Positions 38,850 to 61,951 of a DNA stretch of 64,000 nt are shown piece by piece; the first letter of the stretch is position 1, and every line of letters begins with the position of its first letter. The position numbers were made by a program, and so were the translations under genes. Under the pieces are notes generated by a model. It had not been told where the DNA came from, ran no database searches, and saw only the letters and a list, made by a program, of their open reading frames with translations. Location of the stretch: contig NZ_AP022576.1 in assembly GCF_010730355.1 (NCBI RefSeq), positions 4,774,001 through 4,838,000 of the forward strand, read 5' to 3'. Source of the stretch: Mycobacterium florentinum (GTDB lineage Bacteria > Actinomycetota > Actinomycetes > Mycobacteriales > Mycobacteriaceae).

Positions 38850-39644
38850 CTAAGAGTCCTCGGGAAAGAAGGTGAAGTTGTTGACGTAGGTGCCGCGGGC
38901 CGCCCAGCCGTTCTCGCGGCTGCCGACGTTTGCCGGGTTCTGATGACGTGCCGGGTCGAACTCTGCTATCGGCCGCCGAGCGTCATCGAGGTCGAAGTAA
39001 CCCGCGTAGCCGAGCCCGGTCAACAGCCTGGTGATCGCGGCTACGGCGTCGGGGTGATGGCGTTCCTCGGCTTCCACGACAACCGTTGGCCGGTTGCGGG
39101 TGAGGGTGTCGGTGGCGCCGCGCAGTACTGCCAGTTCGTGGCCTTCCACGTCGATCTTGATCAGGCCCACGTCGTCCAGGTGCAGATCATCGAGCCGTTT
39201 GACTGGCACGTCGATGCTTTGAATCTCGCCGCCGTCCACGTCGCCGAGGCTGTTGTCGGTGTCGATCGTGCTGCGACCGGGCTCGGACTCGACCACCCGC
39301 ATGGGCAGCACGCCGGGTTTGTCCGATAGCGCCACCGCTTCCACCCGGACCTCCGCGCCTACCGCGTCGAACATCGACGCCAGGGCGCGGGCCTGGGCAG
39401 GCCGCGGCTCGAATGCGATGACCGCCCGCGACCCCGCCAACATCGCGACCGTGAACTCGCCGACGTCGGCACCGATATCCAGGGAGACCCGGTTGGGATC
39501 GCACAACGACGCCGCCAGCTGCACGTCCGGGCGAGATTGGCCCAGACGTTGCATGGCGCGATACTTCCGCCGCCAGAACAGTTGTGGGGCGATGGCCTTT
39601 GCCGCCGGCACGAGCCAACGTTTGGCCGAGCGTGCGACGGGCAT
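38850..39644 (-). CDS. FkbM-family methyltransferase
   Basis: 264 residues. SAM-binding motif SLDIGADVGEFTVAML followed by AFEPRPAQARAL, and the FkbM-family VGLIKIDVEGHELAVLRGA. FkbM enzymes O-methylate sugars or polyketides; in mycobacteria they methylate glycopeptidolipid and other surface-glycan sugars. The C-terminus is extended with NNFTFFPED. It stands alone, divergent from the first DUF4832 lipoprotein and next to the polysaccharide locus, so methylation of that polymer is a reasonable hypothesis. Confidence 0.87.
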   Translation of the reverse strand: MPVARSAKRWLVPAAKAIAPQLFWRRKYRAMQRLGQSRPDVQLAASLCDPNRVSLDIGADVGEFTVAMLAGSRAVIAFEPRPAQARALASMFDAVGAEVRVEAVALSDKPGVLPMRVVESEPGRSTIDTDNSLGDVDGGEIQSIDVPVKRLDDLHLDDVGLIKIDVEGHELAVLRGATDTLTRNRPTVVVEAEERHHPDAVAAITRLLTGLGYAGYFDLDDARRPIAEFDPARHQNPANVGSRENGWAARGTYVNNFTFFPEDS

Positions 39645-39896
39645 TTCTTGAGTCTCCAGTGCGGTCTTCTGGCGACCGCAGGCTCGACGGGACCGGGCCG
39701 CCGCGGGTGGCCAGCAATTTGTCAGGCGTCAGCCTAGTCGAAGCAGCGTAGGCCAATGTTTACGCGTGGCAACGCCTGCTCACCAGCACCACGGCAACTC
39801 GGCCAGGCCGTGACTACCAGGCCCACGATTGTGAGCCGTATCGCTGAATCTGGGTCGCTGCGGCGGAGCCGCCGCTCACACCGGGGCGCGCATCCC

Positions 39897-39911
39897 TCTA
39901 GCATCGCAACG
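39897..39911 (+). repeat. 15-base leader repeat, copy 1, with leaderless -10
   Basis: TCTAGCATCGCAACG directly precedes the ATG of the first DUF4832 gene and recurs exactly at 43459-43473 before the second. It contains TAGCAT, a TANNNT-type -10, seven bases from the start codon, and no ribosome-binding site, which indicates a leaderless transcript. Confidence 0.6.
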
Positions 39912-41468
39912 ATGGTCCGGACACTGAGGCGAGGCGCGGCGGCGGTTGGCGCCTGCGCGGCGCTCGTGTTGAGCGCCTGCGGCGGTCACGTCACCCCCGG
40001 GCCGTTGTCGGCCATGGTCAGTCCGGCCATCCCGCCCGGCGTCGCCGACATCCCCAACCCGCTGCGCGGGCAGTACGAAGACTTGATGAATCCGCTTTTC
40101 CCGCAAGGCAATCCCGCGCAGCAGCGCTACCCGGCGTGGCCCGCGTCGTATGACGCCAGCATGAGTATCTCGTGGCGGCAGTTGCAGCCCACCGATCCGG
40201 CCACGCTGCCCCCCGATGCGCCCGACGATCGCAAGTTCGACTTCAGCGCGATCGACGACGCGCTGAACAAGCTGGCCAGCCGTAGCATGCGGCTTGCCCT
40301 GCGCGTTTACTCCTACAGCTCCGACCCGAACGGCACGGGCATCGCCGTCCCCGAATGGGCGCGGCCGGTGACCACCAGCTTCCCGCCGCCGCCGAACAGT
40401 CCCGGCGTGCCGCAGGCGGTGCCGAACTGGGACGACCCGCGCTACCTCGACGAGTTCGGCCAGCTGCTCGCGGCGCTGGGCCGCCGCTATGACGGGGACG
40501 AGCGGCTCAGCGTCTTCGAGTTCGCCGGATACACCCAATTTCGGGACCAGGGCATCAGCGCCGCGTCGATCCGGCAGCTGGTCGCGGCCAACGTCAACGC
40601 CTTCGGTCACACCCAATTGGTGGTGGCGCCGCAGAACCCGGAGATCGTGCGCGAACTGTTCTCCGACGACGTCACCAAGAAGCTGTCGGCTCCGGTGGGT
40701 GTCCGCTCGGATTGCCTGGGCGTCCAGTCGCCGTTGCCCGGTTGGGCCGAGTCCGGTGACTCCCGGTACGTCCGCAACAACGATGCGATCGTCAACGCGA
40801 TCAAGCAGCGGCTGCGCTCGGCTCCGGTGATCACCGAATGGTGCTCCCTGCCCGGTGGGGCCGACTCCAAGGGCTACTACGAAAAGGGCCTGCACGACGT
40901 CGTCAAGTACCACGTGTCGATGACGGCGAGCGCGAACTTCCCGGACCGGGATTCGACATCGGCGATGGACCCGAAGCTGTACGCGTTGTGGGCGCAGGCC
41001 AATGCGGCTGCCGGATACCGGTATTCGGTGGATGCGAAGCCGGGATCGCAATCGATTCAGGGCAAAGTGGCGGCCATCTCGGTGGAGTGGACGAACTACG
41101 GCGCGGCCGCTACCACCGAGCAGTGGGCGCCCAACTACAAGCTGGTGGATTACACCGGTGCGGTGGTACGCACGCTGCCGGCCACGGTCAACCTCAAGAC
41201 ATTGGTGCACGACGATTCCAGCCCGTCGCGCGACGAGGCGGTCCCCGCGTCGGCTACCGAGACCGTGCACGTCGACCTGTCCGGGCTGGTGCCGGGGCAC
41301 TACACGCTGCGCGCCTCGGTGGATTGGCAACAGCACAAGCCGGGTGCGTCGCACGTGGTGAACTACGGCCCGATGGCACTGGCCCGCGACGGGCGTGACG
41401 GCTCCGGCCTGTACCCGATTGCAACCCTTGACATCCCGCGCGACAACACGAACTCAACCAACGGTTGA
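39912..41468 (+). CDS. DUF4832/DUF4874-type surface lipoprotein (copy 1)
   Basis: 518 residues from ATG 39912. Signal peptide ending LVLSAC gives a lipoprotein. The mature chain starts with NPLRGQYEDLMNPLFPQG, then WRQLQP and KFDFSAIDDALNKLASRSMRLALRV, a pattern typical of a TIM-barrel, glycosidase-like fold (DUF4874), and ends in a beta-rich DUF4832-like domain (VEWTNYGAA; GHYTLRASVDWQQHKPGASHVV). Members are found in polysaccharide-related loci of other phyla and their substrates are unknown. A close paralogue lies 2 kb downstream. It probably binds or trims a surface glycan outside the cell. Confidence 0.85.
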   Translation: MVRTLRRGAAAVGACAALVLSACGGHVTPGPLSAMVSPAIPPGVADIPNPLRGQYEDLMNPLFPQGNPAQQRYPAWPASYDASMSISWRQLQPTDPATLPPDAPDDRKFDFSAIDDALNKLASRSMRLALRVYSYSSDPNGTGIAVPEWARPVTTSFPPPPNSPGVPQAVPNWDDPRYLDEFGQLLAALGRRYDGDERLSVFEFAGYTQFRDQGISAASIRQLVAANVNAFGHTQLVVAPQNPEIVRELFSDDVTKKLSAPVGVRSDCLGVQSPLPGWAESGDSRYVRNNDAIVNAIKQRLRSAPVITEWCSLPGGADSKGYYEKGLHDVVKYHVSMTASANFPDRDSTSAMDPKLYALWAQANAAAGYRYSVDAKPGSQSIQGKVAAISVEWTNYGAAATTEQWAPNYKLVDYTGAVVRTLPATVNLKTLVHDDSSPSRDEAVPASATETVHVDLSGLVPGHYTLRASVDWQQHKPGASHVVNYGPMALARDGRDGSGLYPIATLDIPRDNTNSTNG

Positions 41469-41600
41469 CACGCCACCGACGGCGTTCGTTCGACCGGAGA
41501 AAACGTGCCGTGCATGATACGGTTCTCTGACTAATATGATCCGTGACCTGCTCAAATCTGGTCGCTCGACCGGGACATGCGCCCCACAACGGAGGTCTGG

Positions 41601-43463
41601 ATGCCGCGCAGCCTGGACCTGGTCGTAACCTCCGTCGCCAACCAGCTGGTGGACGCGACCGCGGCCACCGCGGCTGAGGTGAGCCAAAAGGTCCTCGCTC
41701 AGCTCGTCGAGCAGTTCGATTTGGATACCGCCTTTTTGCGCCACCGCGACGAGTCTTCCCGGGCCTCGGTGCTGGTCGCGGAGTGGCCACCGCGAACCGA
41801 GGTCACGGATGCGGATCCGCTGGCCGCTATCGAAGCCGCCACCGTCGATCCGCTGCTTGACCCGGGCGAGCAGGGCGGCAAGCCGGTCCTGATATCGCCC
41901 CGTCAGCGCGGTTCGTGGTGGCGTGTGCTGACGGGGCCCAAGCAACCGGTGACGCCTTCGGTGGTGGCCGCACCGCTGGTCTCGGGCGAAGTGACGACCG
42001 GCGTGCTCGGCTTCGTCAGGTTCGGCATCCGGAAGTGGAAGCAAACCGAGGTCAACACGCTCGAAGCGATCGCCGCACTGTTCGCGCAGCTACAAGCACG
42101 TCTTGCGGCCGAGGAGAAGCTTCGCTACCTGGCCGAGCACGACGATCTGACCGGCTTGTACAACCGGCGGGCGCTGGTCGCCCACCTGTCCGAGCGGCTC
42201 GCCGCCGGCAAGCCGGGACCCGTCGCGGTGCTGTATCTCGACCTCGACCGGTTGAAGCCGATCAACGACTATCTGGGCCATACCGCGGGCGACTGGTTCA
42301 TCAGGGTCTTCGCGCAACGCATTCAGGCCTGCGCCGGCGGTCAGGCGATGATCGCCCGGCTGGGTGGCGACGAGTTCGTCGTCGTACCCGACCAGTCGAT
42401 GTCGCCGGAGACCGCGGAGTCGTTCGCCCGTCGCTTGTCGAAAATGCTCTGCGAGCGCCTGGCCATCGGCGGTCACATGATCAGCCGCACCGTCAGCATC
42501 GGGCTGGCGGTCGGCATGCCGGAGCGCGACAACTGCACCGCACTGTTGCGCCGCGCCGACGAGGCGGTGCTCACCGCCAAGCGGGCCGGCGGCAACCAGA
42601 TCGCGGTGTTCACCGATGACATGTCGCTGAAAAGCGCCTTCCGCAACGACATTGAGCTGCATCTGCAGGGCGATATCGGCAGCGAGGCGCTGCTGCTGCA
42701 TTATCTTCCCGAGGTCGACCTGTGGACCGGCGCGGTGGTCGCCGCCGAGGCGCTGGTCCGCTGGCGGCACCCGATCTGGGGACTGCTGCTGCCGGACGCG
42801 TTCATCGGCGTGGCCGAATCGACCAACCTGGCCGGCGAGCTGGGCCGCTGGGTGATGCGCACCGCCTGCGCCGAGTTCAGCCGGTGGCGTGCCAACGGAG
42901 TGGGGCAGGGCGCGATCCTGCGTGTCAATGTGTCACCGGTGCAACTGATCACCCGCGGCTTCGTGCGCAGTGTCGCCGAGACGATCGAAGAGTTCGGCAT
43001 CGACGCCGCATCGTTGTGCCTGGAGATCACCGAGCGCGCCGTCGTGCACGACATCGAGACCACCCGCAATACTCTCGAGGAGCTCAAAGAGGTCGGGGTG
43101 CAGCTGGCCGTCGACGACTTCGGCACCGGCTATGCGGTGCTGTCACATCTGAAGTCGCTGCCGGTCGACATGCTGAAGATCGACGCCGGATTCGTCCGGG
43201 ACCTGGGTAACAATGCCGGCGACCTGGCCATCGTTCGCGCCATCATCGGGCTCGCCGAGGCGTTCGGTCTGCAAGTCGTCGCCGAGGGAGTCGAGACACC
43301 CGCTGCCGCACTGACTTTGATGCAACACGGCTGCCACCGCGCGCAAGGATTCTTGCTGTCGAGGCCCGTCCCGGGCGACGCGATGGAGGCATTATTTTCG
43401 GCGCGCTGGATGCCGATGCCGTTCCTGGCCGATCGTGAGGCCTTGTCGCAGGGCGTAATCTAG
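41601..43463 (+). CDS. GAF-GGDEF-EAL bifunctional c-di-GMP enzyme (Rv1354c-like)
   Basis: 620 residues from ATG 41601, chosen for GGAGG six bases upstream; an ATG eight codons earlier lacks one. An N-terminal GAF-like domain (about 10-180), a GGDEF domain with intact RLGGDEF at about 255, and an EAL domain with EALVRW near 382, NVS, LEITER, VDDFGTG, LKID and EGVE all present. Both activities, synthesis and breakdown of cyclic di-GMP, therefore look possible. The RxxD inhibitory site that normally precedes GGDEF is absent. It aligns well with M. tuberculosis Rv1354c. Here it lies between two surface lipoproteins beside a polysaccharide locus. Confidence 0.93.
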   Translation: MPRSLDLVVTSVANQLVDATAATAAEVSQKVLAQLVEQFDLDTAFLRHRDESSRASVLVAEWPPRTEVTDADPLAAIEAATVDPLLDPGEQGGKPVLISPRQRGSWWRVLTGPKQPVTPSVVAAPLVSGEVTTGVLGFVRFGIRKWKQTEVNTLEAIAALFAQLQARLAAEEKLRYLAEHDDLTGLYNRRALVAHLSERLAAGKPGPVAVLYLDLDRLKPINDYLGHTAGDWFIRVFAQRIQACAGGQAMIARLGGDEFVVVPDQSMSPETAESFARRLSKMLCERLAIGGHMISRTVSIGLAVGMPERDNCTALLRRADEAVLTAKRAGGNQIAVFTDDMSLKSAFRNDIELHLQGDIGSEALLLHYLPEVDLWTGAVVAAEALVRWRHPIWGLLLPDAFIGVAESTNLAGELGRWVMRTACAEFSRWRANGVGQGAILRVNVSPVQLITRGFVRSVAETIEEFGIDAASLCLEITERAVVHDIETTRNTLEELKEVGVQLAVDDFGTGYAVLSHLKSLPVDMLKIDAGFVRDLGNNAGDLAIVRAIIGLAEAFGLQVVAEGVETPAAALTLMQHGCHRAQGFLLSRPVPGDAMEALFSARWMPMPFLADREALSQGVI

Positions 43464-43473: not shown

Positions 43474-45146
43474 TGATCCGAAGAGCGAGCAAATGCATGG
43501 CGGCCGTTGTGGCGTGCGCGGCGCTGGTCTTGAGCGGATGCAGCAAGTCGAGTGGCCATGAACCGCTGAGCGCGGTTGTCAGTCCGGCGATCCCGTTGAA
43601 CGTGCAGGAGGTGCCGAACCCGCTGCGCGGCCAGTACGAAGATCTCCTGATGCCGCTGTTCCCACAGGGCAACCCCGCCCAGCACCGGTACCCTGCGTGG
43701 CCGGCGTCCTACGACGCCAGTTTGCGTGTCACCTGGCGCCAGCTGCAGCCGGTCGATCCGGCCCGGCTGCCCCCCGACGCCCCCGACGACCGCAAGTTCG
43801 ACTTCAGCGTTATCGACGACGCGCTCGCGAAACTCGCCGGCCAAAACATGCGGCTCACCCTTCGCGTGGTCGCCTACAACTCGTGTTGCAACTCTTGGTA
43901 TCCGAACAACACCAACATCGCGATTCCCGACTTCATGTGGCCGCTGGCCGCCAATTATACTGGGCCACAACGCTATTGGTGGACGACCGGAGTGACGCAT
44001 GTCGTTCCGAATTGGAACGACCCTCAGTACCTGGACGCGTTCGGCCAGCTGCTCGCCGCGCTGGGTCGTCGTTACGACGGCGACGAGCGGCTGAGCGTGT
44101 TCGAGTTCTCCGGTTACGGAGACTTCAGCGAGAACCACATCTCCTACCAACGTGACACGCTGGGTGCGCCGGGCCCGGCTCCTGACGAAAGCGTGGCAAA
44201 GCTGGGCTATTACAGCCAGTTTCGTGACCAGACCATCACCGCCGCATCCATTCGGCAGCTCGTTGCCGCGCATGTAAGCGCGTTCCCCCATACCCAATTG
44301 GTGACGACGGCGCTGAACCCGGAGATCGTGCGGGAGCTGCTCGCCGACGACGTCACGAAGAAATTGTCCGCGCCGGTAGGTATCCGTGCGGACTGCCTTG
44401 GCGTCCAGGCGCCCCTGCCTGCCTGGGCCGAACGAGAAGGTTCGCAGTATTTGAAGGTGAAGGACCCGGTCGTCGGCCAACTGAAAGACCGGATGGCCTC
44501 GGCACTGGTGATTACCGAATGGTGCCAGTTGCCCGACGGAACCGATCCGAAGTCCTATTACGAAAAGGGCCTGCGCGACGTCGTCAAGTACCACGTGTCG
44601 ATGACGTCGAGCTTCAACTTCCCGGCCGTGGATTCGAGTAGTCCGATGGACCCGGCGTTATACCTGCTGTGGGCGAGGGCCAATGTCGTCGCGGGTTATC
44701 GGTATTCGGTCCAAGCGCACGGGGGATCGCAAACGTTCCACGACGGGGAAGCGACGATCGGTGTCACCTGGACCAACTACGGCTCCGCCGCCGCCGGCGA
44801 AAAATGGGTTCCCGGCTACCGGCTGGTGGACTTCACGGGCGCGGTGATCCGGGAAATGCCCGCGACCGTCAACCTGAAGTCCCTGGTCCGCGGGGACAAC
44901 TCCGGCGACGAACCCGCCCCGGCGTCGGCCGACGAAACCGTGACCGTGGATATCGGGAGCCTGCCGCCCGGGAATTACACCCTGCAGGCGGGTGCCACCT
45001 GGCAACAGCACAAACCCAATGCATCCCACGTCGTGAACTACCCGCCGATGCGGTTGGCCCGCGATGGGCGGGACGGAACCGGGTGGTATCCCGTCGCGAC
45101 GGTCGACATACCGCGCGAGGTGCTCACTTCCACCCCTCGGCAGTGA
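43473..45146 (+). CDS. DUF4832/DUF4874-type surface lipoprotein (copy 2)
   Basis: 557 residues from GTG 43473. Lipobox LVLSGC after a short signal. The mature part is closely similar to copy 1 over nearly the whole length (PNPLRGQYEDL, WRQLQPVDPARLPPDAP, RYDGDERLSVFEF, YYEKGLRDVVKYHVSM, ATWQQHKPNASHVVNY). It carries two extra stretches: a Cys-Cys-containing loop (NSCCNSWYPNNTNIAIPD) and a ~30-residue insert after VFEFSGYGDFSENH. It is thus a duplicate that has diverged at loops, perhaps for a different glycan. The gene starts ten bases after the GGDEF-EAL stop. Confidence 0.86.
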   Translation: MIRRASKCMAAVVACAALVLSGCSKSSGHEPLSAVVSPAIPLNVQEVPNPLRGQYEDLLMPLFPQGNPAQHRYPAWPASYDASLRVTWRQLQPVDPARLPPDAPDDRKFDFSVIDDALAKLAGQNMRLTLRVVAYNSCCNSWYPNNTNIAIPDFMWPLAANYTGPQRYWWTTGVTHVVPNWNDPQYLDAFGQLLAALGRRYDGDERLSVFEFSGYGDFSENHISYQRDTLGAPGPAPDESVAKLGYYSQFRDQTITAASIRQLVAAHVSAFPHTQLVTTALNPEIVRELLADDVTKKLSAPVGIRADCLGVQAPLPAWAEREGSQYLKVKDPVVGQLKDRMASALVITEWCQLPDGTDPKSYYEKGLRDVVKYHVSMTSSFNFPAVDSSSPMDPALYLLWARANVVAGYRYSVQAHGGSQTFHDGEATIGVTWTNYGSAAAGEKWVPGYRLVDFTGAVIREMPATVNLKSLVRGDNSGDEPAPASADETVTVDIGSLPPGNYTLQAGATWQQHKPNASHVVNYPPMRLARDGRDGTGWYPVATVDIPREVLTSTPRQ

Positions 45147-45181
45147 ATCGCGCGTAGGGTGCGTCGGCGAACCCACGCGAA

Positions 45182-45201: not shown

Positions 45202-45204
45202 CGG

Positions 45205-45316: not shown

Positions 45317-46765
45317 ATGGATTTCCGTACTTTTGTCCGGATTATGACGGCGCACTGGAAGCTCGCCCTGACTGCGCTGCTGATGTGTACCCTCGGTGCC
45401 GCGTTCGTCACGGCGGTGCAGAACAAGCACTATCAGTCGTCGGCCACCGTCCTCATCTCGTTTACCGGCGCTACCGACCTCAACGAGGTGTACAGCGGCA
45501 CGGTGGCCGCACAAGAACGGCTGTCGTCGTATGCGCAGATCGCCGGTGGACGCACTGTGGCAGAGCGCGCGGTCACTCAGCTGCAACTCCCCATCAGCGC
45601 CGACGAGGTGCTCAGTCAAACCCAGGTGAAATACACCGCGAAATCGCTGCTGTTCACGATCAGCGTCAAAGATACCGATCCGGGCCGCGCCGCCGCGCTG
45701 GCCGGCGCGATGGCGGATCAGTTCAGTGCGCTCGTACCAACGCTGGCCGGCAACCCGCGGCCGGCCGACACGACCGCGACGCCGCCCGACGCTCCCGGAG
45801 CCCCGGGAACCCCCGGAGCGCCAGGACCGCTGGGACCGCTGGGACCGACGGGCAAGCCGTTCCCGATCGCCCACGCGAAGGTGGTGGAGCCGCCCCGGAT
45901 ATCGCGCATTCCGGTCTCGCCCGTGCCGATGCGCAACATGGCGATCGGCGTTGTCGCCGGTGTGCTGCTGGCCATCGCGGTGGCGCTGACCCGCGAGGCC
46001 AGCGACCGCACCGTGCGCACCCGCGAGAAGCTGGAAGAGCTCTCGGGCCTGCCGACGTTGGGTGAGCTGCCCGGAAAGCGCGGCACCGCACCGAAATTCG
46101 GCACCGACATCGCATTCGACGACGCGGTCCGCGGCCTGCGTACCCGGCTGAGCCGGGCCATGGGACCCGATGCCCGCCGGGTGTTGGTTGCGGCGCCGTT
46201 CGGCGGGGAGGGAACCACGACGACGGTGCTGAACCTGTCGCGGGCATTCACCGAACTCGGCCAAGACGTGCTGCTCGTCGAGGGCGACACCCGGCGGCCC
46301 GTGGTCGCGGGTCTGCTCAGTGTCGAATCGGGGGAGGGGTTGGCGCATGCGCTGGCCGACCCCGGCATCGCCGTGCAAGCGGTGCGCCAGACCCCGATCT
46401 CGAGGCTGTTCCTTCTCGCGGCCCGGTCCGGTCGGCGCGGCGAGGGCGTGCCCGTCAGCGCGTTCACGCCGGACGTGATCGACAGCGTGCTGGCGAACCT
46501 GTCGTCGCGGTTCGGCCAGACGGTGGTCGACGGGCCGCCGGTGCTCGCCACCGCCGATTCCGGTCTGCTGGCCGGCGCGGTTCAGGCCACGGTGCTGGTC
46601 GTGCGCGCCAATCGGACCACCGTCGACGAACTCACCGACGCGCTGGCCGCGTTGCGCGCCGCCGGCGCGCGCGTCGTCGGAACCGTGCTGACCGGTGCCA
46701 AGCCGTCGGTGCACAGCCGGGCCGCCGCGCGCGCATACCGTGGAAAGCTCAGCGGGTCGGCGTGA
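45317..46765 (+). CDS. Wzz/CapB-type polysaccharide chain-length regulator with degenerate BY-kinase domain
   Basis: 482 residues. Membrane helices at about 15-34 and 207-225 bracket an extracytoplasmic Wzz-like domain (QSSATVLISFT; DPGRAAALAGAMADQF). Between them residues 161-181 are seven Gly-X-Y triplets (GAPGTPGAPGPLGPLG...), a collagen-like insert. The cytoplasmic half resembles a bacterial tyrosine kinase/ParA fold: Walker A region GGEGTTTT (296-303) has Thr300 where the nucleotide-binding Lys is expected; Walker A' LLVEGDTRRP and B VVDGPPV remain. Only one Tyr lies in the tail (ARAYRGK). It should set polymer length with the downstream polymerase, possibly without kinase activity. Confidence 0.87.
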   Translation: MDFRTFVRIMTAHWKLALTALLMCTLGAAFVTAVQNKHYQSSATVLISFTGATDLNEVYSGTVAAQERLSSYAQIAGGRTVAERAVTQLQLPISADEVLSQTQVKYTAKSLLFTISVKDTDPGRAAALAGAMADQFSALVPTLAGNPRPADTTATPPDAPGAPGTPGAPGPLGPLGPTGKPFPIAHAKVVEPPRISRIPVSPVPMRNMAIGVVAGVLLAIAVALTREASDRTVRTREKLEELSGLPTLGELPGKRGTAPKFGTDIAFDDAVRGLRTRLSRAMGPDARRVLVAAPFGGEGTTTTVLNLSRAFTELGQDVLLVEGDTRRPVVAGLLSVESGEGLAHALADPGIAVQAVRQTPISRLFLLAARSGRRGEGVPVSAFTPDVIDSVLANLSSRFGQTVVDGPPVLATADSGLLAGAVQATVLVVRANRTTVDELTDALAALRAAGARVVGTVLTGAKPSVHSRAAARAYRGKLSGSA

Positions 46766-52030: not shown

Positions 52031-52900
52031 TCACGTCGGCGCCCGCCAGAGTTCGTCGATCAGGGACTTCGTCTCCCGGATGTTCGTGCGGCTGGACGCG
52101 CCAAAGACGATCGAGTGGATCTGCGGCTGTCTGCAGACGTAGTCGATCGCCTCGCGTGGCCGGATCGCACCTGAGGCGAAGACCGACATCGCGATCACCC
52201 GGCACCGGCGTTCGCGGATTGTCTTCTCGTAAAGCTCTATGCCGCCGCACATCCGGAAGCCGATCTTGTTGAAATTAGTGCAGATGATCGGGTTCTCGAT
52301 CCCTTGCCTGTCCAGCACGTCGAGGAGGCGCGGCAGGTTCATCGTGATGAAGCCCGGCTCGGCGTTGTACTTCAGCCTGACGTGGTCGGCGAACAGTCGG
52401 AAGGTCTCGTCCATTCCGAGTCCGAGGAGCAGGTCCGTCACGACGTTCTGAAGGAAGATGACGGGCGTCGAAAGTCCGGCGAACATCTTCATCTCGGCAT
52501 CGACCAGCAGCTGCATCAACGGCTCCACGTCCTTGCTGGCGAGAGCAACGCCGCCCTTGAACATCGACCTCACGGCCCCGCTGTCCGGCAAAAACTTCCG
52601 GAGCGCCTCTATCATCCCGTACTCGGTCACCGCATTCGCATACTTGTGCGCATACGGCATGCATGGGTAAAAGACGTAATCCGGGTATTCAATCTCGTTG
52701 GCGCGGAAATGATCACAGATTTCGCCAACACGATCATGGGTCGTGCAGACGAACGTGCGGATGCCTTCCCGATAAGCGTCGTCGAGCGTCGCGAGCACAG
52801 CCGGGAGGTGCTGGAAGCGAATCGCCTGCGCGCGCGCCTTTTCCTCGGACATATGGTTGACGCCGAAAAATTGATTGTCTCCGAACAGCACACGGTCCAT
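52031..52900 (-). CDS. TIM-barrel protein distantly related to aldo/keto reductases
   Basis: 289 residues from ATG 52900, two bases after the upstream gene's stop. The N-terminus MDRVLFGDNQFFGVNHMSEE and the C-terminal REAIDYVCRQPQIHSIVFGASSRTNIRET resemble the first and last strands of the aldo/keto reductase barrel, but the catalytic Asp-Tyr-Lys-His set is not evident. Family unnamed to me. Gene pairs of this type with Gfo/Idh-like enzymes occur in sugar-modification clusters, so it may act on a nucleotide sugar. It is convergent with the GMC gene. Confidence 0.65.
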   Translation of the reverse strand: MDRVLFGDNQFFGVNHMSEEKARAQAIRFQHLPAVLATLDDAYREGIRTFVCTTHDRVGEICDHFRANEIEYPDYVFYPCMPYAHKYANAVTEYGMIEALRKFLPDSGAVRSMFKGGVALASKDVEPLMQLLVDAEMKMFAGLSTPVIFLQNVVTDLLLGLGMDETFRLFADHVRLKYNAEPGFITMNLPRLLDVLDRQGIENPIICTNFNKIGFRMCGGIELYEKTIRERRCRVIAMSVFASGAIRPREAIDYVCRQPQIHSIVFGASSRTNIRETKSLIDELWRAPT

Positions 52901-52902
52901 GG

Positions 52903-54269: not shown

Positions 54270-54725
54270 ATGGGCCGCCTGCTCCTCATCGCGTCGTCCG
54301 GCGGGCACATCTACGAGATGTTCTGTCTGCGGGAGTTCTGGCAAGACAAGGACCGGTACTGGGTCAGTTTCGGGACAGCCGATGCTCGCTATCTGCTGCG
54401 CGACGAGCATGAGGTGTACTGGGCGGCACATCCCACCGTCCGCAATGTGCCCAACCTGCTTCGCAATCTGGTGTTGGCGCTGCGTCTTCTGACCCGCCAC
54501 CGGCCCGCGATGATCTTGACCACCGGTTCCGGCGTGGCCGCGCCCTTCCTGTGGCTGGCGTGGTTTCTGCGGATCCCGACCGTCTTCGTCGAATCCATCA
54601 CCCGCATCACCGGGTTGTCGCTCACCGCGCGGATGGTGAAACCTTTCGCCTCCCGATTCCTGGTGCAGTGGCCCGAATTGGTCGACCAGATTCCCCGCAC
54701 CGAATATCACGGGAGGGTCGTGTGA
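54270..54725 (+). CDS. PssD/Alg14-like glycosyltransferase subunit
   Basis: 151 residues from ATG 54270, with GGAGGTGA eight bases upstream; GTG 54258 is an alternative. It is the membrane-associated acceptor half of a split GT-B transferase: LLLIASSGGHIYEM, then TTGSGVAAPFLWLAWFLRIPTVFVES with a hydrophobic helix, and the C-terminal VQWPELV. In other bacteria this subunit recruits the catalytic PssE/Alg13-like protein, encoded here by the overlapping next gene. Likely adds an early sugar to the polyprenyl-linked repeat unit. Confidence 0.9.
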   Translation: MGRLLLIASSGGHIYEMFCLREFWQDKDRYWVSFGTADARYLLRDEHEVYWAAHPTVRNVPNLLRNLVLALRLLTRHRPAMILTTGSGVAAPFLWLAWFLRIPTVFVESITRITGLSLTARMVKPFASRFLVQWPELVDQIPRTEYHGRVV

Positions 54726-55261
54726 TCTTCGTGATCATGGGGATGGAGGTGCATCCGTTCGACCGGCTGGCGCGCGCGGTCGACGAGCTGGCGCGCACCG
54801 GCGCGGTCGAGGACGATTTTTTCGTGCAGCTCGGCACCTGTAAGTACGAGCCGCGCCACGCCCGGTTCGAGCGCTTCCTCTCCTTCGGAGACCTCTGCGA
54901 GCAAATTCGGCGAGCCTGCGTGGCCGTCACGCATGCCGGCGCCGGATCGGCGCTGTCGTGCATCGAGCAGGGCAAGCACCCGGTGCTGGTGCCCCGGCGC
55001 TCGTCGCTGGGCGAGCACGTCGACGAGCACCAGCTGCCGTTCGCCGAGAAGCTGGAGGCGGGCGGGCTCGCGACCGTGGCCCGGGAGATGGAGGAGCTGC
55101 CCGCGGCCATCGCCGCGGCGCGGTCGATGTCGGCGCCGGCCGAGGCGCTCGGCCGGGCTCGCGAGCTCACCGGGTGGCTAGAGACGTACTGGCAAGGGCT
55201 TGGCGGTGGGCGGAGCAACGGTCGGCGCGGCCTTCGTGCACTCGGCCCCCGCCGTCGCTGA
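54722..55261 (+). CDS. PssE/Alg13-like glycosyltransferase subunit
   Basis: 179 residues from GTG 54722, overlapping the stop of the PssD-like gene by four bases. It is the donor-binding half of the GT28 fold: IFVIMGMEVHPFDRL start, FLSFGDLCEQIRRA, VTHAGAGSALSCIEQGKHPVLVPRRSSLGEHVDEHQ, the nucleotide-sugar-binding segment. Compared with typical ~165-residue subunits the C-terminus has a Gly/Arg-rich tail. It faces the leftward GT4 gene with a six-base gap. Confidence 0.9.
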   Translation: MIFVIMGMEVHPFDRLARAVDELARTGAVEDDFFVQLGTCKYEPRHARFERFLSFGDLCEQIRRACVAVTHAGAGSALSCIEQGKHPVLVPRRSSLGEHVDEHQLPFAEKLEAGGLATVAREMEELPAAIAAARSMSAPAEALGRARELTGWLETYWQGLGGGRSNGRRGLRALGPRRR

Positions 55262-55267
55262 CGTAAC

Positions 55268-56326
55268 TCAGCGCCGAGGGGCCAACACCTCGGCGATGAC
55301 GTCCAGGAAGCGCTCCGCGACGATGTCGACTGCGCACCGCTGCTCGTAGTAACGCGCCGCTTCCGCTCCGAGCCGCGCGGCGACGGCGGGGTCGGCCAGC
55401 AGGTCGAAGGCGGCGGCGAGCCCGGCAACGTCGTCGACATCGATGGGGGTGCAGCCCGGCGGCTGGTATTCGGGCAGCGCTCCGGCCGTCGACACGATCG
55501 GCATGACGCCCAGCTGCATGGAGAGCACCTGCACCCCGCTCTGGGAGGCACGCCGGTAGTGGGAGACCGAACCCTTTGCGGCGGCCAGGGTGGGGATGAC
55601 ATCGGCATAGCGGAAGCTGCCGGTACGCCAGCGCACGTGTTTGGGCAGAGCGGCGGCGTCCAGTGACCCGTTGCCGATCAGGACCAGGTTGTCGCCGCGC
55701 CAGCCGCCCCCGACGACGTGGCGCTGCCACGCGGCGAGCACCACGTCGACGTTCTTGTACGGGTTGAGCCGGCCGAACAGGACGAAGTCGCGGCGCGCTT
55801 CGGGCCCGACGAACGGGGGGATCCGGGGCAGGTCGACATCGCTGGCGAGCGGCACCACGTGCACGGGCGTGCCGGCGACGTCGCGGTTGTTCGCGACCGC
55901 GGTGGCGACAAAATTGCTGTAGGTGATGGTGGCCGCGGAGCGGGCGCCCCAGCGATCGAAAACCGCTGTCTCGTAGGCCGGCCGCTGCTCGTCGGGGTCG
56001 TGCGGCCGGTCGTCGTGCACCACCTGGATGCGTGGTACCCGCCCGGCCAGCGCGATCCAGCGCGGATCGCGAACCAGCTCGGCGATGACGACGTCGGGCC
56101 GGAAGGCCCGGATTTGCCGCCAGGCCTTCAGGGTTGGCAGCCAGGTCGCGGCGGTCTTGAACCGCGGATCGAGCACCAGTTCGTAGTCACGGGCGGCGTC
56201 CGATTCCGGGTGCTGGTCCGAGGTCACCAGCAACACCTCGGCGCCATGGCGAATCAGCGCTTCGGACTGCACGCGTACCGCCGGGCGTGTCCAAGGCGAA
56301 AGCCAAAGCACCCGAGTCGAATTCAC
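55268..56326 (-). CDS. GT4-family glycosyltransferase
   Basis: 352 residues from GTG 56326, which overlaps the stop of the upstream gene (GTGA); an in-frame ATG at 56467 would lie deep in that gene. GT-B fold with LWLSPWTRPAVRVQSEAL, VVHDDRPHDPDE, FVLFGRLNPYKNVDVVLAAW and LSMQLGVMPIVSTAGALPE. The usual E-x7-E is partly replaced (QSGVQVLSMQLG), so the donor site deviates from classical GT4 members. Last gene of the leftward sugar-transferase operon. Confidence 0.85.
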   Translation of the reverse strand: MNSTRVLWLSPWTRPAVRVQSEALIRHGAEVLLVTSDQHPESDAARDYELVLDPRFKTAATWLPTLKAWRQIRAFRPDVVIAELVRDPRWIALAGRVPRIQVVHDDRPHDPDEQRPAYETAVFDRWGARSAATITYSNFVATAVANNRDVAGTPVHVVPLASDVDLPRIPPFVGPEARRDFVLFGRLNPYKNVDVVLAAWQRHVVGGGWRGDNLVLIGNGSLDAAALPKHVRWRTGSFRYADVIPTLAAAKGSVSHYRRASQSGVQVLSMQLGVMPIVSTAGALPEYQPPGCTPIDVDDVAGLAAAFDLLADPAVAARLGAEAARYYEQRCAVDIVAERFLDVIAEVLAPRR

Positions 56327-58263
56327 AGTACCGTCCCGATCGCGTCGATATAGGCGTCGGTCATGGCCTCCACCGTGTAGCGCTTGCGCATGCGCTCGAG
56401 GCCGAGCCGCCCCACCGTCGGTAATGCGCCGGGGTCCGCCAGGATTTGGCCCAGGTGTTCTCGCCATCCCGACACCGACACGGGCTCGACGACGAACCCC
56501 GCTCTACCGAAATTCAGCATTTCCGGGACGGCGCAGATCGCCGACGCCGCAACGGGTATCCCGCGTGCCATCGCTTCCAGAATCACCAGCGGGAACGCCT
56601 CCGAGCGGCTCGGCACGCACAGCAGATCGGCGTCGCTTAGGGCGGGCCCGGGGCCCGCAGACCATCCGCGCCAGTGCACCCGATCGCGCAGCTCGGGGGG
56701 CGTACGCGCCTGCAGTCGTTCCCGATCGGGGCCGTCACCGAAAATCGACAGCCGCCAAGGCATATCGGCGAGTCCGCTCAGCGCCTCGACGAGCACGTGC
56801 GGGTTCTTGTGCTCGAGGATGCGCGAGAGCATCACCAAGTGCACGGGTTCATCATCGGCCCGGATCCGCCTGCTCGGTTCGCCCGGAGCGACCACGCCGT
56901 TGGGTGCGATGAACCGCCGTCCCGACAGCCGATGCTGTGCGATCAGCATGTCCCAATGCCGTTGCGCCAGAACGATAATACCGTCCGCCCGGCGGATCGC
57001 CGCGGTCAGCGGCCGTGAGTAGATAGGCCGGTCATCCTCGGGAGGAACGTGCGGCGCGACCAACCAGCGCCGGTCGGGTGAGGCCGCGCGCCACAACGTG
57101 GCGAATCCCGTCTCGGTGTTCGTGTCGCCGGAGATCAGCACTGCCGGACCCTTGGGAATATCGACGGCGGGCGCCCACCAAGGCTGGCGCACCACCCGAA
57201 CGGTCGGCGGAATCTCGGAGATCAACGGGCCGAACCGCTGCACGCAGACGATCGTGACCGAGTAGCCGCGGCGATCCAATTCCGCTGCCAGCAAAGCCTT
57301 TTGCCGCTCAGCCCCGCCGTAGACCAGCCGGTTGGTGGTGATCACGATCGACGGCAGTTCGGTGCGACGGTCGACGGGCACCTCACGCCTGGACCGCTGC
57401 ACGCGCTGCAGCAGTGTGGTTCCGGCCAGATACAGGTCCGCCTGGTGCACGCTCTTGTGGTGTTCGAGCAGCAGCGCCGTGTTGGTGCGCAGCAAGTCCA
57501 GATCGCGGCGGCGCTCGACGCCCTTGCGGGGCATCGGGTTACCGCGATCGACGCCGAGTTCGTCGGCCAGCAGCAGCGCCCAGCCCGCCGCACGGGTCCG
57601 GGCCTGCCAGTCGGCCGTCTCGCCGTACCTGAAGAATTCCTCGTCGAAGCCGCCGACGGTGTTCCAGGCCGCGCGGTCGATCGCCAGGCAAGTACCGTCC
57701 AAATCGCCTTCAAGACTTTGTGATTCGGGAGGCTGGTGGGCGTAGCGGGCGGAGATCGGCGTGCCCCGCCTCGAGTGGGAGTAGCCCGCGTCCGCCGCCA
57801 GCGCCCGGGCCAGGGTGGGGCGGCGGGTCACGGTGTCCCACGGCTGCAGGCCGGCCGCCGTGCTGTCCTGCGCCATCGGCGAGACCGCTGCGACGTTCGG
57901 CCGAGCGAGCAGCTCTCGGGTGCGCTTCAACGGCCCCAGCAGGCGGGCATCGGCGCGCAACAACAGTAGATCGGCTTCCGGCGGCGCGTGCTCGACCAGC
58001 ATGTTGAACGCCGCTGCGAAGCCAACATTCGCCGATCCCGACACCCAGTGCACCGACGGGTACCGTGCGGCCAAGTCCTCGCGGTCGGTGGCCCAGACAT
58101 AGACGGGCAGCTCCGGCAGGTGCTCGGTGACGCTGGCCAGGCACCGCTCGAGCGGCTCGGCGTCGTGCGCCACGATCAGCACCGCAAGCGTCCGTGTCGC
58201 CGGCAGCGCCGCTGTGCCGTCAACCGGGCGCTTCAGATATGCCCGGTCCACATCGTGGGTCAT
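56323..58263 (-). CDS. GT2-GT4 fusion glycosyltransferase
   Basis: 646 residues from ATG 58263, overlapping the flippase stop (ATGA). The first ~305 residues are a GT2-like domain: LAVLIVAHDAEPLERCLASV, GSANVGFAAAFN, DGTCLAIDRAAWNTVGGFDEEFFRYGETADW. The rest is a GT4 domain: VYGGAERQKALLAAEL, MLSRILEHKNPHVLVEAL, FGDGPDRERLQ and SEAFPLVILEAMARG (E-x7-E). Two consecutive sugars could be added by one chain. The open frame upstream to 59529 is an antisense-free shadow of the flippase gene and not part of the protein. Confidence 0.88.
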   Translation of the reverse strand: MTHDVDRAYLKRPVDGTAALPATRTLAVLIVAHDAEPLERCLASVTEHLPELPVYVWATDREDLAARYPSVHWVSGSANVGFAAAFNMLVEHAPPEADLLLLRADARLLGPLKRTRELLARPNVAAVSPMAQDSTAAGLQPWDTVTRRPTLARALAADAGYSHSRRGTPISARYAHQPPESQSLEGDLDGTCLAIDRAAWNTVGGFDEEFFRYGETADWQARTRAAGWALLLADELGVDRGNPMPRKGVERRRDLDLLRTNTALLLEHHKSVHQADLYLAGTTLLQRVQRSRREVPVDRRTELPSIVITTNRLVYGGAERQKALLAAELDRRGYSVTIVCVQRFGPLISEIPPTVRVVRQPWWAPAVDIPKGPAVLISGDTNTETGFATLWRAASPDRRWLVAPHVPPEDDRPIYSRPLTAAIRRADGIIVLAQRHWDMLIAQHRLSGRRFIAPNGVVAPGEPSRRIRADDEPVHLVMLSRILEHKNPHVLVEALSGLADMPWRLSIFGDGPDRERLQARTPPELRDRVHWRGWSAGPGPALSDADLLCVPSRSEAFPLVILEAMARGIPVAASAICAVPEMLNFGRAGFVVEPVSVSGWREHLGQILADPGALPTVGRLGLERMRKRYTVEAMTDAYIDAIGTVL

Positions 58264-59723
58264 GCCGCCGACTGCTTCCCACGCAACGACGCCAATGCCG
58301 AGAAGGTGATCGGGCCGAACACCGCGCTGGTGGCCAGGTAGGCGGTCGCGGCGGCCAGCAGGACCAGGACCACCTGGTGACCCGAAAGCAGCAGTGTCAC
58401 CAGGACGCTCGCGCCCGTCGGGATGAAGAGCCGCAGCACGAACATCACCGGCGTACGGTAACCGCAGTGCCGGTGCAGCCACCAGGTGGAGACCGCCATG
58501 TTGAACAGCTCCGTGCACACCAGCGCGACGCCGGGTCCAACGGCGCCGAACCGCCCGGCGAGTGCGAGGTTCAGCGCGACGTTGAGGGCAAGGGTGGCGA
58601 CGGTCAGCCAGAACAGCACCCGCTGATGGTGGGAGGCGACCAACCCCTGCCCGAGCGTGCCGCCGACGAACCGAAGGGCTGCCGCGATGAACAACAACGC
58701 CAGCGTCGGCGTCCCGCGGGCGACGAAGGCCTGGTCGCCGAAGAACGCGATCAACGGCCCGGCCAGCAGGGTGCCGACGACCGCGATCGGGACCGCCGCG
58801 AAGTACATCAGCTCGACGCCGCGGCGCAGGAAGCCGGCGAACGCCGCGACGTCTCGCGCATACAGCTCGGTGCCCGTCGACAGCGTCGACTTGAGGAAGA
58901 TAAGCGACACCACGATGGTGTTGAACGCGATGGTCAGGGCCAGCCCGTAGACGCCCACCTCGGAGTGGGTGCTCAGCAAGGACAGGATCACACCGTCGGC
59001 TCTGGTGTAGAGGATCCCGACCACCATGAATCCGATCAGCGGCAGGGTCTCGCGCAGCAGATCGACGGCCTCGCCGCGTGCGAAGACCGGGCGCACCGAG
59101 ATGTGCCGCGTCGCGGCGATGCCCTGGATCAGCAATTGCACCGCGGGCGGGATGAGTTGGGCTACCGCGAACCAGACGACGTTCGCGTGCTGCGACACCA
59201 GGTAGGCGACCATGGCCAACGTGCCGGTCCGGGCCGTGACGTCGGAGATGGCCACCGCCGAAAAGCGAACGGTGGCAAGGAACACCGGCTCGAAGCGTGT
59301 CGTGATGGTCTGCAGCAGCAGCCCGCCGGACAGCACCACCAGCATCACGCGCACGTCGCGGTCGTGATAGACGAGCAACCCCGATCCGGCCGCCAGCAGC
59401 GCCAGCGGAACGCAATAGACCAGGGCCATACCGCTGTTGACCCGCACGAGGCGTTCGAGATCGCCGCGGCCGGAGGTCACCCGGCGCACGATCACAGTGG
59501 CGAAACCGAGATCGGCAAAGCTGGTCCACATCCCCACGAACGCGACCGCCATGGTGAGCAGGCCGTAGCGGCTGGGACCCAGATAGCGGGCGGTCATCGC
59601 CACCGACACCACCGAGGCAACCATCCCCAGCGCGCGACAGATCAGCTGGATGGAGAACGCGTGAGCCATCCGCCGGAGCGGCACTGACGGGACGACCGCA
59701 CCGGGTGCCGTCGGCTCAGTCAT
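58260..59723 (-). CDS. Wzx-type polysaccharide flippase (MATE/MOP superfamily)
   Basis: 487 residues with about twelve to fourteen membrane helices. The N-terminal MAHAFSIQLICRALGMVASVVSVAMTARYLGPSRYGLLTMA is the classic start of a Wzx/polysaccharide-transport protein (ARYLGPSRYG). Charged residues lie within several helices. It would flip the polyprenyl-linked repeat unit across the plasma membrane. It begins six bases after the sugar-transferase stop. Confidence 0.92.
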   Translation of the reverse strand: MTEPTAPGAVVPSVPLRRMAHAFSIQLICRALGMVASVVSVAMTARYLGPSRYGLLTMAVAFVGMWTSFADLGFATVIVRRVTSGRGDLERLVRVNSGMALVYCVPLALLAAGSGLLVYHDRDVRVMLVVLSGGLLLQTITTRFEPVFLATVRFSAVAISDVTARTGTLAMVAYLVSQHANVVWFAVAQLIPPAVQLLIQGIAATRHISVRPVFARGEAVDLLRETLPLIGFMVVGILYTRADGVILSLLSTHSEVGVYGLALTIAFNTIVVSLIFLKSTLSTGTELYARDVAAFAGFLRRGVELMYFAAVPIAVVGTLLAGPLIAFFGDQAFVARGTPTLALLFIAAALRFVGGTLGQGLVASHHQRVLFWLTVATLALNVALNLALAGRFGAVGPGVALVCTELFNMAVSTWWLHRHCGYRTPVMFVLRLFIPTGASVLVTLLLSGHQVVLVLLAAATAYLATSAVFGPITFSALASLRGKQSAA

Positions 59724-59729
59724 GACTCC

Positions 59730-61319
59730 CTAGTATGCGCCGTGGCTGGTGAGAACGGCCTTCACGGTCTTGGCGATGATCATCAGGTCACCCGCCATCG
59801 ACCAGTTGTCGACATAGGACAGATCCAACCGGACCGACTGCTCCCAGGACAGATCCGAGCGGCCGCTCACTTGCCACAGCCCGCTGACACCCGGTTTCAC
59901 CAGCAGTCGGCGCGCGACGTCGCCGTCGTAGTTCTCGACCTCCCGGCGCAGCGGCGGCCGCGGCCCGACGACGCTCATGTCGCCCTTGATCACGTTGATG
60001 AACTGGGGCAGCTCGTCGATGCTGAAGCGGCGCAGAAGTCTGCCGACCGGCGTGACCCGGGGGTCGTTGCGGATCTTGAACAACATGCCGCCGGTGCTTT
60101 CGTTGTGCGCCAGCAGGTGCTCGATTTGCTTGTCGGCGCCGTCGGTCATGGTGCGGAACTTCAGCATCGTGAACGGGTTTCCGTCGATGCCGATGCGCTC
60201 GGACGGGTAGAAGACGGGCCCCCTGCTGGTCAGCTTGACGGCGATCGCCGCGACTATCAGCACCGGCGCGGTCGCGATCAGGGCGGCCAGCGCGAAGCAG
60301 AAGTCGAAGGCCTGCTTCTGAAAGCGCTGTGTCCCTTCATATTGCGGCTTCTCGACGTGCAGCAGGGGCAGGCCGGCGGTGAGCTGCAGGGTCAGTCGCG
60401 CTTCGGCGACGTCCATCACGCCGGGGGAGACCACCAGGTCGACGTCCTTGGTCTCCAACTGCCACATCAGCTCTCGGATCCCGCGGACACCGAAGTGCTC
60501 GGTCCGGGTGACCGCCACGGTGTCCGCACCGCACCGGTCGATCGCGGCCACGGCGTGGCTTTCGTCGCCCAGGATCGGGACCTCGCGGCCATCGACCACC
60601 AGGGTGTTGCCGCGCGACGGGCCGTATCCGGGAATGCAGACCCCGACCACGACGCAGCCCGCCCGGGGATTGCGGGCCAGTTCGTGCGCGAGGTGCGTGA
60701 CCGCCTGCCGGTCGCCGACCGCCAGCACCTTGGTCTGGCACTGGCCGCGCGCCCGCAGGCTGCCGAGGTGTTGGCGCCACAGGCTGCGGCTGGCCAGCAA
60801 GCCGAGTGTGCCTGCGGGAAGCGCGATCGCCAGGTAACCACGGGCCAGGTCGACCTTGGCGAGCAGGGTGACCATGGCGATGATGCCGAAGGTCCAGAAG
60901 GACGCGCTGCCGATCCGCCGGTACTCGTCGATGCCCGCCCCGATGATGCGCGGAGACCGTGTCTGGAATACCGCCAGCGACGACAGCCACAGCGCCGCGA
61001 ACAGGATCGAGAACATCGTCATCACCGGGCCCGAGTAGGCCGAGGTGCGGGCCGGGGATTCCCCGAACCGGACGAGTTGGGCGAGCATGACCGATCCCGA
61101 CACGATCAGCGTGTCGCTGACCCGCAGCCGTCCCGCGTACAGGTTCTGCCAGCGCCGCACGACGGTGGCGCTGGGTACCGCCACCGACTGGGCGGCCAAT
61201 GCCGAACCAGGAAGTCGACCACCCGGCAACGAGATCATCCCTGCTGGCTTTCGCTTATACGGTGGCTGGTTGGGGCGGAACGCCGTCGCGGACGGCGCCG
61301 GAGCCATTGGCATGATCAT
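59730..61319 (-). CDS. Polyprenyl glycosylphosphotransferase (WbaP/CpsE-type), initiating enzyme
   Basis: 529 residues. Four to five N-terminal membrane helices, a central CoA-binding-like domain (KVLAVGDRQAVTHLAHEL...VVVGVCIPG), and the C-terminal bacterial sugar-transferase domain: DFCFALAALIATAP, PVFYPSERIGIDGNPFTMLKFRTM, the FSIDELPQFINVIKGDMSVVGPRP catalytic region and PGVSGLWQVSGRS. It transfers sugar-1-phosphate from an NDP-sugar to decaprenyl phosphate, the first committed step of a Wzx/Wzy polymer. First gene of the leftward operon with wzx and two transferase genes. Several ATGs near the start are equally possible. Confidence 0.93.
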   Translation of the reverse strand: MIMPMAPAPSATAFRPNQPPYKRKPAGMISLPGGRLPGSALAAQSVAVPSATVVRRWQNLYAGRLRVSDTLIVSGSVMLAQLVRFGESPARTSAYSGPVMTMFSILFAALWLSSLAVFQTRSPRIIGAGIDEYRRIGSASFWTFGIIAMVTLLAKVDLARGYLAIALPAGTLGLLASRSLWRQHLGSLRARGQCQTKVLAVGDRQAVTHLAHELARNPRAGCVVVGVCIPGYGPSRGNTLVVDGREVPILGDESHAVAAIDRCGADTVAVTRTEHFGVRGIRELMWQLETKDVDLVVSPGVMDVAEARLTLQLTAGLPLLHVEKPQYEGTQRFQKQAFDFCFALAALIATAPVLIVAAIAVKLTSRGPVFYPSERIGIDGNPFTMLKFRTMTDGADKQIEHLLAHNESTGGMLFKIRNDPRVTPVGRLLRRFSIDELPQFINVIKGDMSVVGPRPPLRREVENYDGDVARRLLVKPGVSGLWQVSGRSDLSWEQSVRLDLSYVDNWSMAGDLMIIAKTVKAVLTSHGAY

Positions 61320-61387
61320 CGCGCGGCTTCCTTAGTTCGCACATGACGGGTAGGTCACCTGAAGAGCCGGCGCAATGGCGGCACCCC

Positions 61388-61951
61388 TCAGCATGATGCT
61401 GCGCTCACAACCGGCGCGGGCCGGGGCGCATACGCGGGCCAGCTCGCGTCCTCCTCGGAGATGACGGTGACTGGCAGCGGCCATTCGATTCCGAATTCCG
61501 CGTCGTTCCAACGCAATCCCTGTTCGTCGGCCACCTCGCGGTGGCTGCTGATCTGGTAGTTGACTTCGGTGTTGGCGGTCAGGGTCTGAAAGCCGTACGC
61601 GACGTAGGGCGGTAAGAACAGCGCCCGGTGATTGTCGGCGTTCAGCTCGACCATCATGTGATCGCCGAAAGTCTGTGCCTCGGGCCGAATGTCGACCACG
61701 GCGGTGGCAATGGCACCGCGGGTGCAGCGCACCAGCCTGGATTCGGCGTGCGGGGGCAATTGAAAGTGCAGACCCCGCACGGTGCCCCGGGTGTAGTTGA
61801 AGAGCACGTCGGTCTGGACGACCTTGAAAGTCAGGCCGTAGCGATTGAATTCGTCGGCGCAGAACGAACGTGACGAGAAGCCGCGGTGGTCCCGTTGCGG
61901 TTCGAGGTCGACGATCGTCACGCCGGCAACCTTCGTTGGCGTGTACTTCAC
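61388..61951 (-). CDS. dTDP-4-dehydrorhamnose 3,5-epimerase-like protein
   Basis: 187 residues, GTG start with AAGGAG upstream. Cupin fold of the RmlC family: DHRGFSSRSF, RGTVRGLHFQLPP with the catalytic His (in GLHFQ), RLVRCTRGAIATAVVDIR, and LFLPPYVAYGFQTL. In RmlC the last motif is usually PxGFAHGF, where a second His/Tyr acts; here Tyr and Phe occupy that stretch, so a 3-epimerase or 4-ketoreductase-like variant is possible. Probably makes a deoxysugar for the locus; rmlA, B and D are not nearby. Confidence 0.83.
   Translation of the reverse strand: MKYTPTKVAGVTIVDLEPQRDHRGFSSRSFCADEFNRYGLTFKVVQTDVLFNYTRGTVRGLHFQLPPHAESRLVRCTRGAIATAVVDIRPEAQTFGDHMMVELNADNHRALFLPPYVAYGFQTLTANTEVNYQISSHREVADEQGLRWNDAEFGIEWPLPVTVISEEDASWPAYAPRPAPVVSAASC

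Follow-up and report, generated by a model that had tools for sequence, protein, structure and literature searches.

Mycobacterium florentinum carries a locus for a predicted Wzx/Wzy-type assembly line, which would build a repeating-unit polysaccharide polymerised outside the plasma membrane, and whose interior, but not its left flank, has likely been exchanged between species. We put the probability of this reading at about 0.8. The locus lies in a window of 64,000 nucleotides (bases 4774001-4838000 of a 6.22-Mb single-contig genome); coordinates below are window positions. An earlier note, made from the sequence of this window, had described a nearly complete Wzx/Wzy-type exopolysaccharide locus in a Mycobacterium. 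Beyond it, the present analysis finds that the locus is widespread, that its interior varies between species, and that it carries a cyclic di-GMP (c-di-GMP) enzyme and two paralogous lipoproteins. Gene limits were taken from codon-usage gene models, and families were assigned by Pfam and NCBIfam profile searches against curated cut-offs. Two sets of loci were compared, 40 from genomes (the 40-locus set) and 77 from named species. Many loci of the two sets share a source genome, which means that numbers of loci cannot be equated with numbers of genomes; some stretches in the 40-locus set end early. The G+C content of the locus is 63-69% in 2-kb steps, similar to the remainder of the window.

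The predicted initiating enzyme is a polyprenyl glycosylphosphotransferase (PHPT; 59730..61319, minus strand; TIGR03025 1e-126, 423.4 bits, cut-off 295.55), the sole PF02397 match in the whole genome. Its Asp-Glu dyad is conserved throughout (117/117), and its start lies at 61319 by longest frame or at 61184 by the codon model. The closest named relatives are in M. ahvazicum (92–93% identity) and M. montefiorense (89%). The neighbouring MOP-type Wzx flippase (58260..59723, minus strand; PF01943 7e-18, 65.5 bits, cut-off 28.2) shows 11 hydrophobic segments by hydropathy. The predicted Wzy-type polymerase (46762..48231, plus strand; Wzy_C/PF04932 50.3 bits, cut-off 31.7) is modelled with a WaaL/SEDS-like fold, has the conserved Arg and His, and is 90% identical to a protein annotated in M. 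stomatepiae; solved sequence relatives were searched for, with no convincing match. All three proteins, placed here by the earlier note, exceed curated cut-offs, and the profile check that it had proposed for Wzx and Wzy bore out both families. Reading a 1068-aa frame across the two-domain transferase and the flippase as one gene was rejected, as codon-usage models end the transferase at 58263.

Directly upstream of Wzy lies the gene of a Wzz/Wzc-like polysaccharide co-polymerase (45317..46765, plus strand), recognised from profiles and motifs, whose stop overlaps the Wzy start (46762/46765). A Wzz-type gene neighbours Wzy in 26/30 loci of the 40-locus set that have a called Wzy frame. The protein matches PDB profiles of BceF, VpsO, CapB and Wzc, and has hydrophobic segments at 14-36 and 202-225, the second preceded by a Pro-rich motif. 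Its kinase-like domain lacks the Walker A lysine, which is replaced in 37/37 co-polymerases (T 33, S 3, A 1) and present in the two PDB relatives compared. The last 30 residues of the 37 proteins hold 0–2 tyrosines, unlike the C-terminal tyrosine cluster of bacterial tyrosine kinases (BY-kinases). The missing ATP-binding lysine suggests that the co-polymerase likely works without tyrosine phosphorylation.

Between conserved ends, the middle of the locus differs from one locus to another in a serotype-like manner. Within the 40-locus set, 37/40 loci share with the window both Wzx and the core GT4 glycosyltransferase (55268..56272, minus strand; PF13439 2.5e-11); the two-domain glycosyltransferase (56323..58263, minus strand), with an N-terminal GT2-like domain and a C-terminal GT4 domain (Pfam GT4 3e-26, C-terminal half), occurs in 34/40 and Wzy in 31/40. 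Three loci share PHPT only, besides one weak Wzz match. The variable interior in M. florentinum encodes a further GT4 enzyme (48355..49368, plus strand; PF13692 3e-20), an aldo/keto reductase (AKR; 49391..50311, plus strand; Pfam 1e-23) and a GMC oxidoreductase (50308..52005, plus strand; Pfam 5e-23). A four-gene cassette follows: a protein of unassigned family (52031..52906, minus strand; no Pfam or NCBIfam match above cut-off), a Gfo/Idh/MocA oxidoreductase (52903..54018, minus strand; Pfam 2e-28), an Alg14-like transferase subunit (54270..54725, plus strand; PF08660 4e-19, 69.7 bits, cut-off 27) and an Alg13-like subunit of PssE/Cps14G type (54722..55261, plus strand; PF04101 1e-11; NCBIfam PssE 94.8 bits, under the cut-off of 120). 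An extra copy of an RmlC-like dTDP-sugar epimerase (61388..61951, minus strand; Pfam 2e-51) scores 131.6 bits against an NCBIfam equivalog cut-off of 155.75; it was rejected as the housekeeping rmlC, as a stronger PF00908 match sits elsewhere in the genome. The locus thus holds four transferase units plus sugar modifiers, and profile searches recovered the AKR, GMC, Gfo/Idh and RmlC-like enzymes, the two GT4 enzymes and the split Alg13/14 pair of the earlier note.

Other middles encode UDP-sugar dehydrogenase, epimerases, C-methyltransferases and other methyltransferases, further GT4 enzymes, hexapeptide transferase, polysaccharide deacetylase and WecG-type transferase. Some cluster representatives (c10, c22, c25, c56) lay outside the interior, and interior members were scanned as well. 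The four-gene cassette is complete in 14/117 loci, and every locus with a homologue of the 52031-52906 protein has all four genes; two or three of Gfo/Idh, Alg14 and Alg13 occur in L109, L115 and, distantly, L131. The M. ahvazicum locus L062 is 93% identical at PHPT, 96% at the PPE gene beyond the RmlC-like gene and 78–79% at the first GT4, AKR and GMC genes, and is without the cassette. Because related species carry different sugar-gene sets at the same place, each species likely has a different coat. A protein of 650-670 residues that matches no Pfam family (L060:9633-11633, L127:3964-5952, cluster c10) was also seen in 47 open frames, 8 of them inside the interior in the 40-locus set and others beyond PHPT.

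Identity along the locus shows a break. Against L035, best-segment identity is 97, 99, 95, 92 and 90% for the sigma factor, reductase, FkbM, lipoprotein 1 and GGDEF-EAL genes of the left flank, then 70, 64 and 51% at lipoprotein 2, Wzz and Wzy. Against genome G031 (L042), GGDEF-EAL is 91% identical over its full length, followed by 92% for lipoprotein 2, 81% for Wzz and 90% for Wzy; Wzx (81%) and the two-domain transferase (72%) fall below their neighbours, perhaps through a second exchange. The GGDEF-EAL tree groups the window with G031, G164, G110, G132 and G076 (100/100), and the Wzy tree, which contains the long branches G071, G006 and G143, groups the window and G031 with G118, G061, G046 and G131 (100/99). 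In an approximately unbiased (AU) test, the Wzy alignment rejects the GGDEF-EAL grouping (p-AU 2.9e-43); the tested group had been fixed in advance as the presumed close relatives of the window and equals the clade of the GGDEF-EAL tree. Because the two trees conflict, the simplest reading is that the interior was likely exchanged between slow-growing species and the left flank was not.

The c-di-GMP enzyme gene stands between two glycosidase-like lipoprotein genes. It encodes a predicted GAF-GGDEF-EAL cyclase/phosphodiesterase (41577..43463, plus strand; EAL 5e-67, GGDEF 1e-35) with both GGDEF and EAL motifs intact in translation. Secreted lipoprotein 1 (39912..41468, plus strand; lipobox LSAC; DUF4832 20.9 bits, below the cut-off of 29.2) and secreted lipoprotein 2 (43497..45146, plus strand) are paralogues with 68% identity and predicted glycoside hydrolases; a search for solved sequence relatives gave no convincing match. 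Lipoprotein 2 is modelled (pLDDT 69) as a TIM barrel plus a beta-sandwich, with E203 (27/27) and E341 (26/27) as candidate catalytic residues where the presumed strands 4 and 7 end. In the lipoprotein at L111:15516-17201, Q replaces the conserved second glutamate. Each of the 41 GGDEF-EAL genes of at least 70% identity (41/41, counting that of the window) has a lipoprotein gene no more than 234 bp away; at 69% or more, 43/45 adjoin one, the exceptions being both genes of G148 (69%), a genome with no lipoprotein match anywhere. Genomes G058, G059, G113 and G195 keep a lipoprotein gene with its adjoining GGDEF-EAL gene and show no Wzy match; these two genes may therefore serve a separate function or be relics. 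Short broken lipoprotein remnants (42–58% identity, internal stops) occur in the reduced 3.3-Mb single-contig genomes G075 and G115, which are not among the Wzy or PHPT matches.

Across 198 sampled genomes of the genus, a PHPT relative (E <= 1e-20) occurs in 150/198, the lipoprotein in 68/198 and Wzy in 47/198, 3 of these 47 Wzy matches being distant (28–37% identity). This answers the presence check suggested by the earlier note and rules out a single-species oddity. Adjacency was counted with PHPT matches down to 692 bits and with a lipoprotein set that leaves aside 12 weaker or partial genomes. The best PHPT relatives (at least 692 bits) are accompanied by Wzy in 42/42 cases; among the next, at 64–65% identity, G166, G119 and G170 are without a Wzy match and G079 has one. 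Wzy and the lipoprotein share one contig in 41 genomes and lie within 2.3 kb of each other in 38. Among the 120 of 237 matches listed, Wzy carriers include M. intracellulare, M. colombiense, M. malmoense, M. kansasii, M. gastri, M. nebraskense and some M. marinum records. The locus of the M. gastri type strain (L092), a non-pathogenic species, also has PHPT, Wzx and the two core transferases.

Several alternatives bear on these results. The identity break could reflect fast evolution of the interior genes in place of exchange, since Wzy and Wzz belong to generally fast-evolving families, and Wzx (81%) and the two-domain transferase (72%) diverge beyond their neighbours even against L042. Yet lipoprotein 2, Wzz and Wzy stand at 92/81/90% to L042 but 70/64/51% to L035, while GGDEF-EAL is 91% and 90% identical in those two genomes; gene order differs too, and the AU test rejects the flank grouping, which leaves fast evolution very unlikely. 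A different question is what the PF04932 protein does. As a ligase or PglL-like enzyme it would move short oligosaccharides to proteins or lipid, yielding glycoproteins or glycolipids and no long polymer. The family spans ligases and polymerases, Pfam calls it O-antigen ligase, and among solved structures the Wzy model is most like the ligase WaaL. The Wzz-type co-polymerase that overlaps the gene from directly upstream, and adjoins it in most loci, argues for a polymerase instead, and scans of the genes at the locus turned up no further candidate for a polymerase. We regard the ligase reading as unlikely.

The polymer might also be anchored to peptidoglycan, like the LCP-attached wall glycopolymers of Gram-positive bacteria, and not be released or capsular. 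Mycobacteria possess LCP enzymes, and the lack of a PF02563 match in the genome would fit such anchoring; among the locus genes scanned there is no LCP gene, the rest of the genome not having been searched for LCP. Wall anchoring appears doubtful, though it keeps appreciable weight. Membership of the locus in lipooligosaccharide (LOS) or glycopeptidolipid (GPL) synthesis is highly improbable. LOS clusters are likewise rich in glycosyltransferases, epimerases and methyltransferases, and carriers such as M. kansasii produce LOS (PMC4403928). However, profile scans of 38.8-62 kb found no gene for a polyketide synthase (PKS), an acyltransferase, a fatty acyl-CoA synthase or MmpL, for which reason LOS or GPL membership was rejected, and the main text of that source mentions neither flippase nor Wzx, neither polymerase nor sugar transferase (PMC4403928). 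The earlier note had set the locus apart from arabinogalactan, lipoarabinomannan (LAM), glucan and GPL synthesis, and among the matches listed in the open-access literature no paper ties it to GPL, LOS or LAM.

A number of observations weigh against a Wzx/Wzy polymer line with an exchanged interior. The polymer itself is predicted from genes. The co-polymerase scores 23.3 bits against the Pfam Wzz cut-off of 25.5 and is also below cut-off in NCBIfam, so that the Wzz-type regulator of the earlier note is backed by PDB profiles and its two hydrophobic segments and not by Pfam or NCBIfam. PF04932 presumably does not tell polymerases from ligases, and the model's best solved match is a ligase. The fusion of GT2 and GT4 domains claimed earlier holds for the GT4 half by Pfam; the GT2-like half has a best Pfam score of 14.7 against 23 bits, and the GT2 call comes from motifs read by eye. 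Position 103 of this half is R in the window and N or D in 76/92 relatives; the domain may therefore differ in donor or be inactive in M. florentinum. Superposition of the lipoprotein model on known structures is poor overall, with most Foldseek TM-scores at 0.2–0.4. Wzy and the lipoprotein are 38–41 kb apart in three genomes, and 25/68 lipoprotein genomes have no Wzy match (e.g. G058, G113, G195). The tree test of the mosaic compared a single gene from the flank with a single one from the interior. PilZ (PF07238) has 0 matches in the M. florentinum genome, the control finding matches in 5/14 genomes, and an Rfam scan of the window gave only a tRNA at gathering score and no riboswitch; with neither found, it is adjacency that suggests a c-di-GMP regulatory link. 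The earlier note saw no outer-membrane polysaccharide export (OPX) channel at the locus, and a genome-wide search extends this: Poly_export PF02563 has 0 matches, its control finding matches in 4/14 genomes. The crossing of the mycomembrane is therefore unexplained.

If the locus is a Wzx/Wzy polymer line, polyprenyl phosphate would carry the unit that PHPT starts, and lengthening the unit would fall to the GT4, Alg13/14 and two-domain transferases. The AKR, GMC, Gfo/Idh and RmlC-like enzymes would likely determine its sugar make-up. Wzx would flip the unit, the Wzy-like protein polymerise it, and the Wzz-type co-polymerase set chain length; outside the membrane, the polymer would likely be trimmed or released by the two lipoproteins, whose genes flank that of the c-di-GMP enzyme, and this enzyme would likely couple output to c-di-GMP. 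A tentative extension, to which we give rather less than even odds, is capsule switching in slow-growing mycobacteria: a cassette swapped between species beside a fixed flank, serotype-like coats, a kinase-dead co-polymerase, a c-di-GMP enzyme encoded at the locus together with two surface hydrolases, and an unknown mycomembrane channel.

The locus resembles several known systems in part. The Wzy-dependent cps locus of pneumococci shares the PHPT start, Wzx, Wzy, a Wzz-type co-polymerase (predicted here), a split Alg14/Alg13-type pair, and conserved ends around a type-specific middle. In contrast to cps, the co-polymerase and kinase-like domain here form one protein, without the Walker A lysine; GGDEF-EAL and lipoprotein genes stand at the locus, the cell has a mycomembrane, and exchange appears to have taken place between species. 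Psl of Pseudomonas aeruginosa is alike in being a Wzx/Wzy-type exopolysaccharide whose locus includes a glycoside hydrolase and which is under c-di-GMP control, both putative here. Unlike in Psl, neither a PF02563 channel nor a PilZ match was found in the genome, and the hydrolase-like proteins are two lipoproteins whose folds resemble PslG only weakly. Among actinomycetes, the wps/imp clusters of Actinoplanes missouriensis also comprise Wzx/Wzy/Wzz sets, tied to matrix polysaccharide, with hydrolases acting on the sporangium matrix (PMC13390465). Deletion mutants with a phenotype are described there, whereas the mycobacterial assembly line is predicted from genes; the main text of that source mentions neither c-di-GMP nor tyrosine kinase (PMC13390465). 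The LOS clusters of M. marinum and M. kansasii are alike as mycobacterial surface glycan clusters with many glycosyltransferases, but hold pks, acyltransferase and MmpL genes, and their source's main text names no flippase or Wzx (PMC4403928). Among the matches listed in the open-access literature, which leaves subscription journals mostly outside, there is no paper on a mycobacterial Wzx/Wzy locus.

Beyond the assembly genes, the left flank carries an FkbM-type methyltransferase (38850..39644, minus strand; PF05050 4e-19), with a relative at 68–95% identity in 17/40 loci, not all stretches extending there. Further left lie a sigma-70-type factor (36655-37548), whose C-terminal part weakly resembles SnoaL (23.7 bits, below the cut-off of 27), and, beside it, a chorismate-binding enzyme (35357-36604). 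On the other side, a PPE-family gene (61996-63153) adjoins the RmlC-like gene, and a relative of it (48–96%) occurs near PHPT in 66/77 named loci. Ten genes scanned at 4308-34495 include an AMP-binding enzyme, two molybdopterin oxidoreductases, a P-type ATPase, an ArsP-type permease, an arginine deiminase and a protein mannosyltransferase.

Mycobacterial surfaces are usually described via arabinogalactan, LAM, glucan, mannan and species-specific glycolipids. If the present reading is true, M. intracellulare, M. kansasii, M. scrofulaceum, M. triplex and related species would possess a new surface layer, a candidate basis of biofilm matrix and of antigenic differences among nontuberculous mycobacteria. 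It would also provide a testable output for mycobacterial c-di-GMP, and a defined cargo for finding the polysaccharide route across the mycomembrane.

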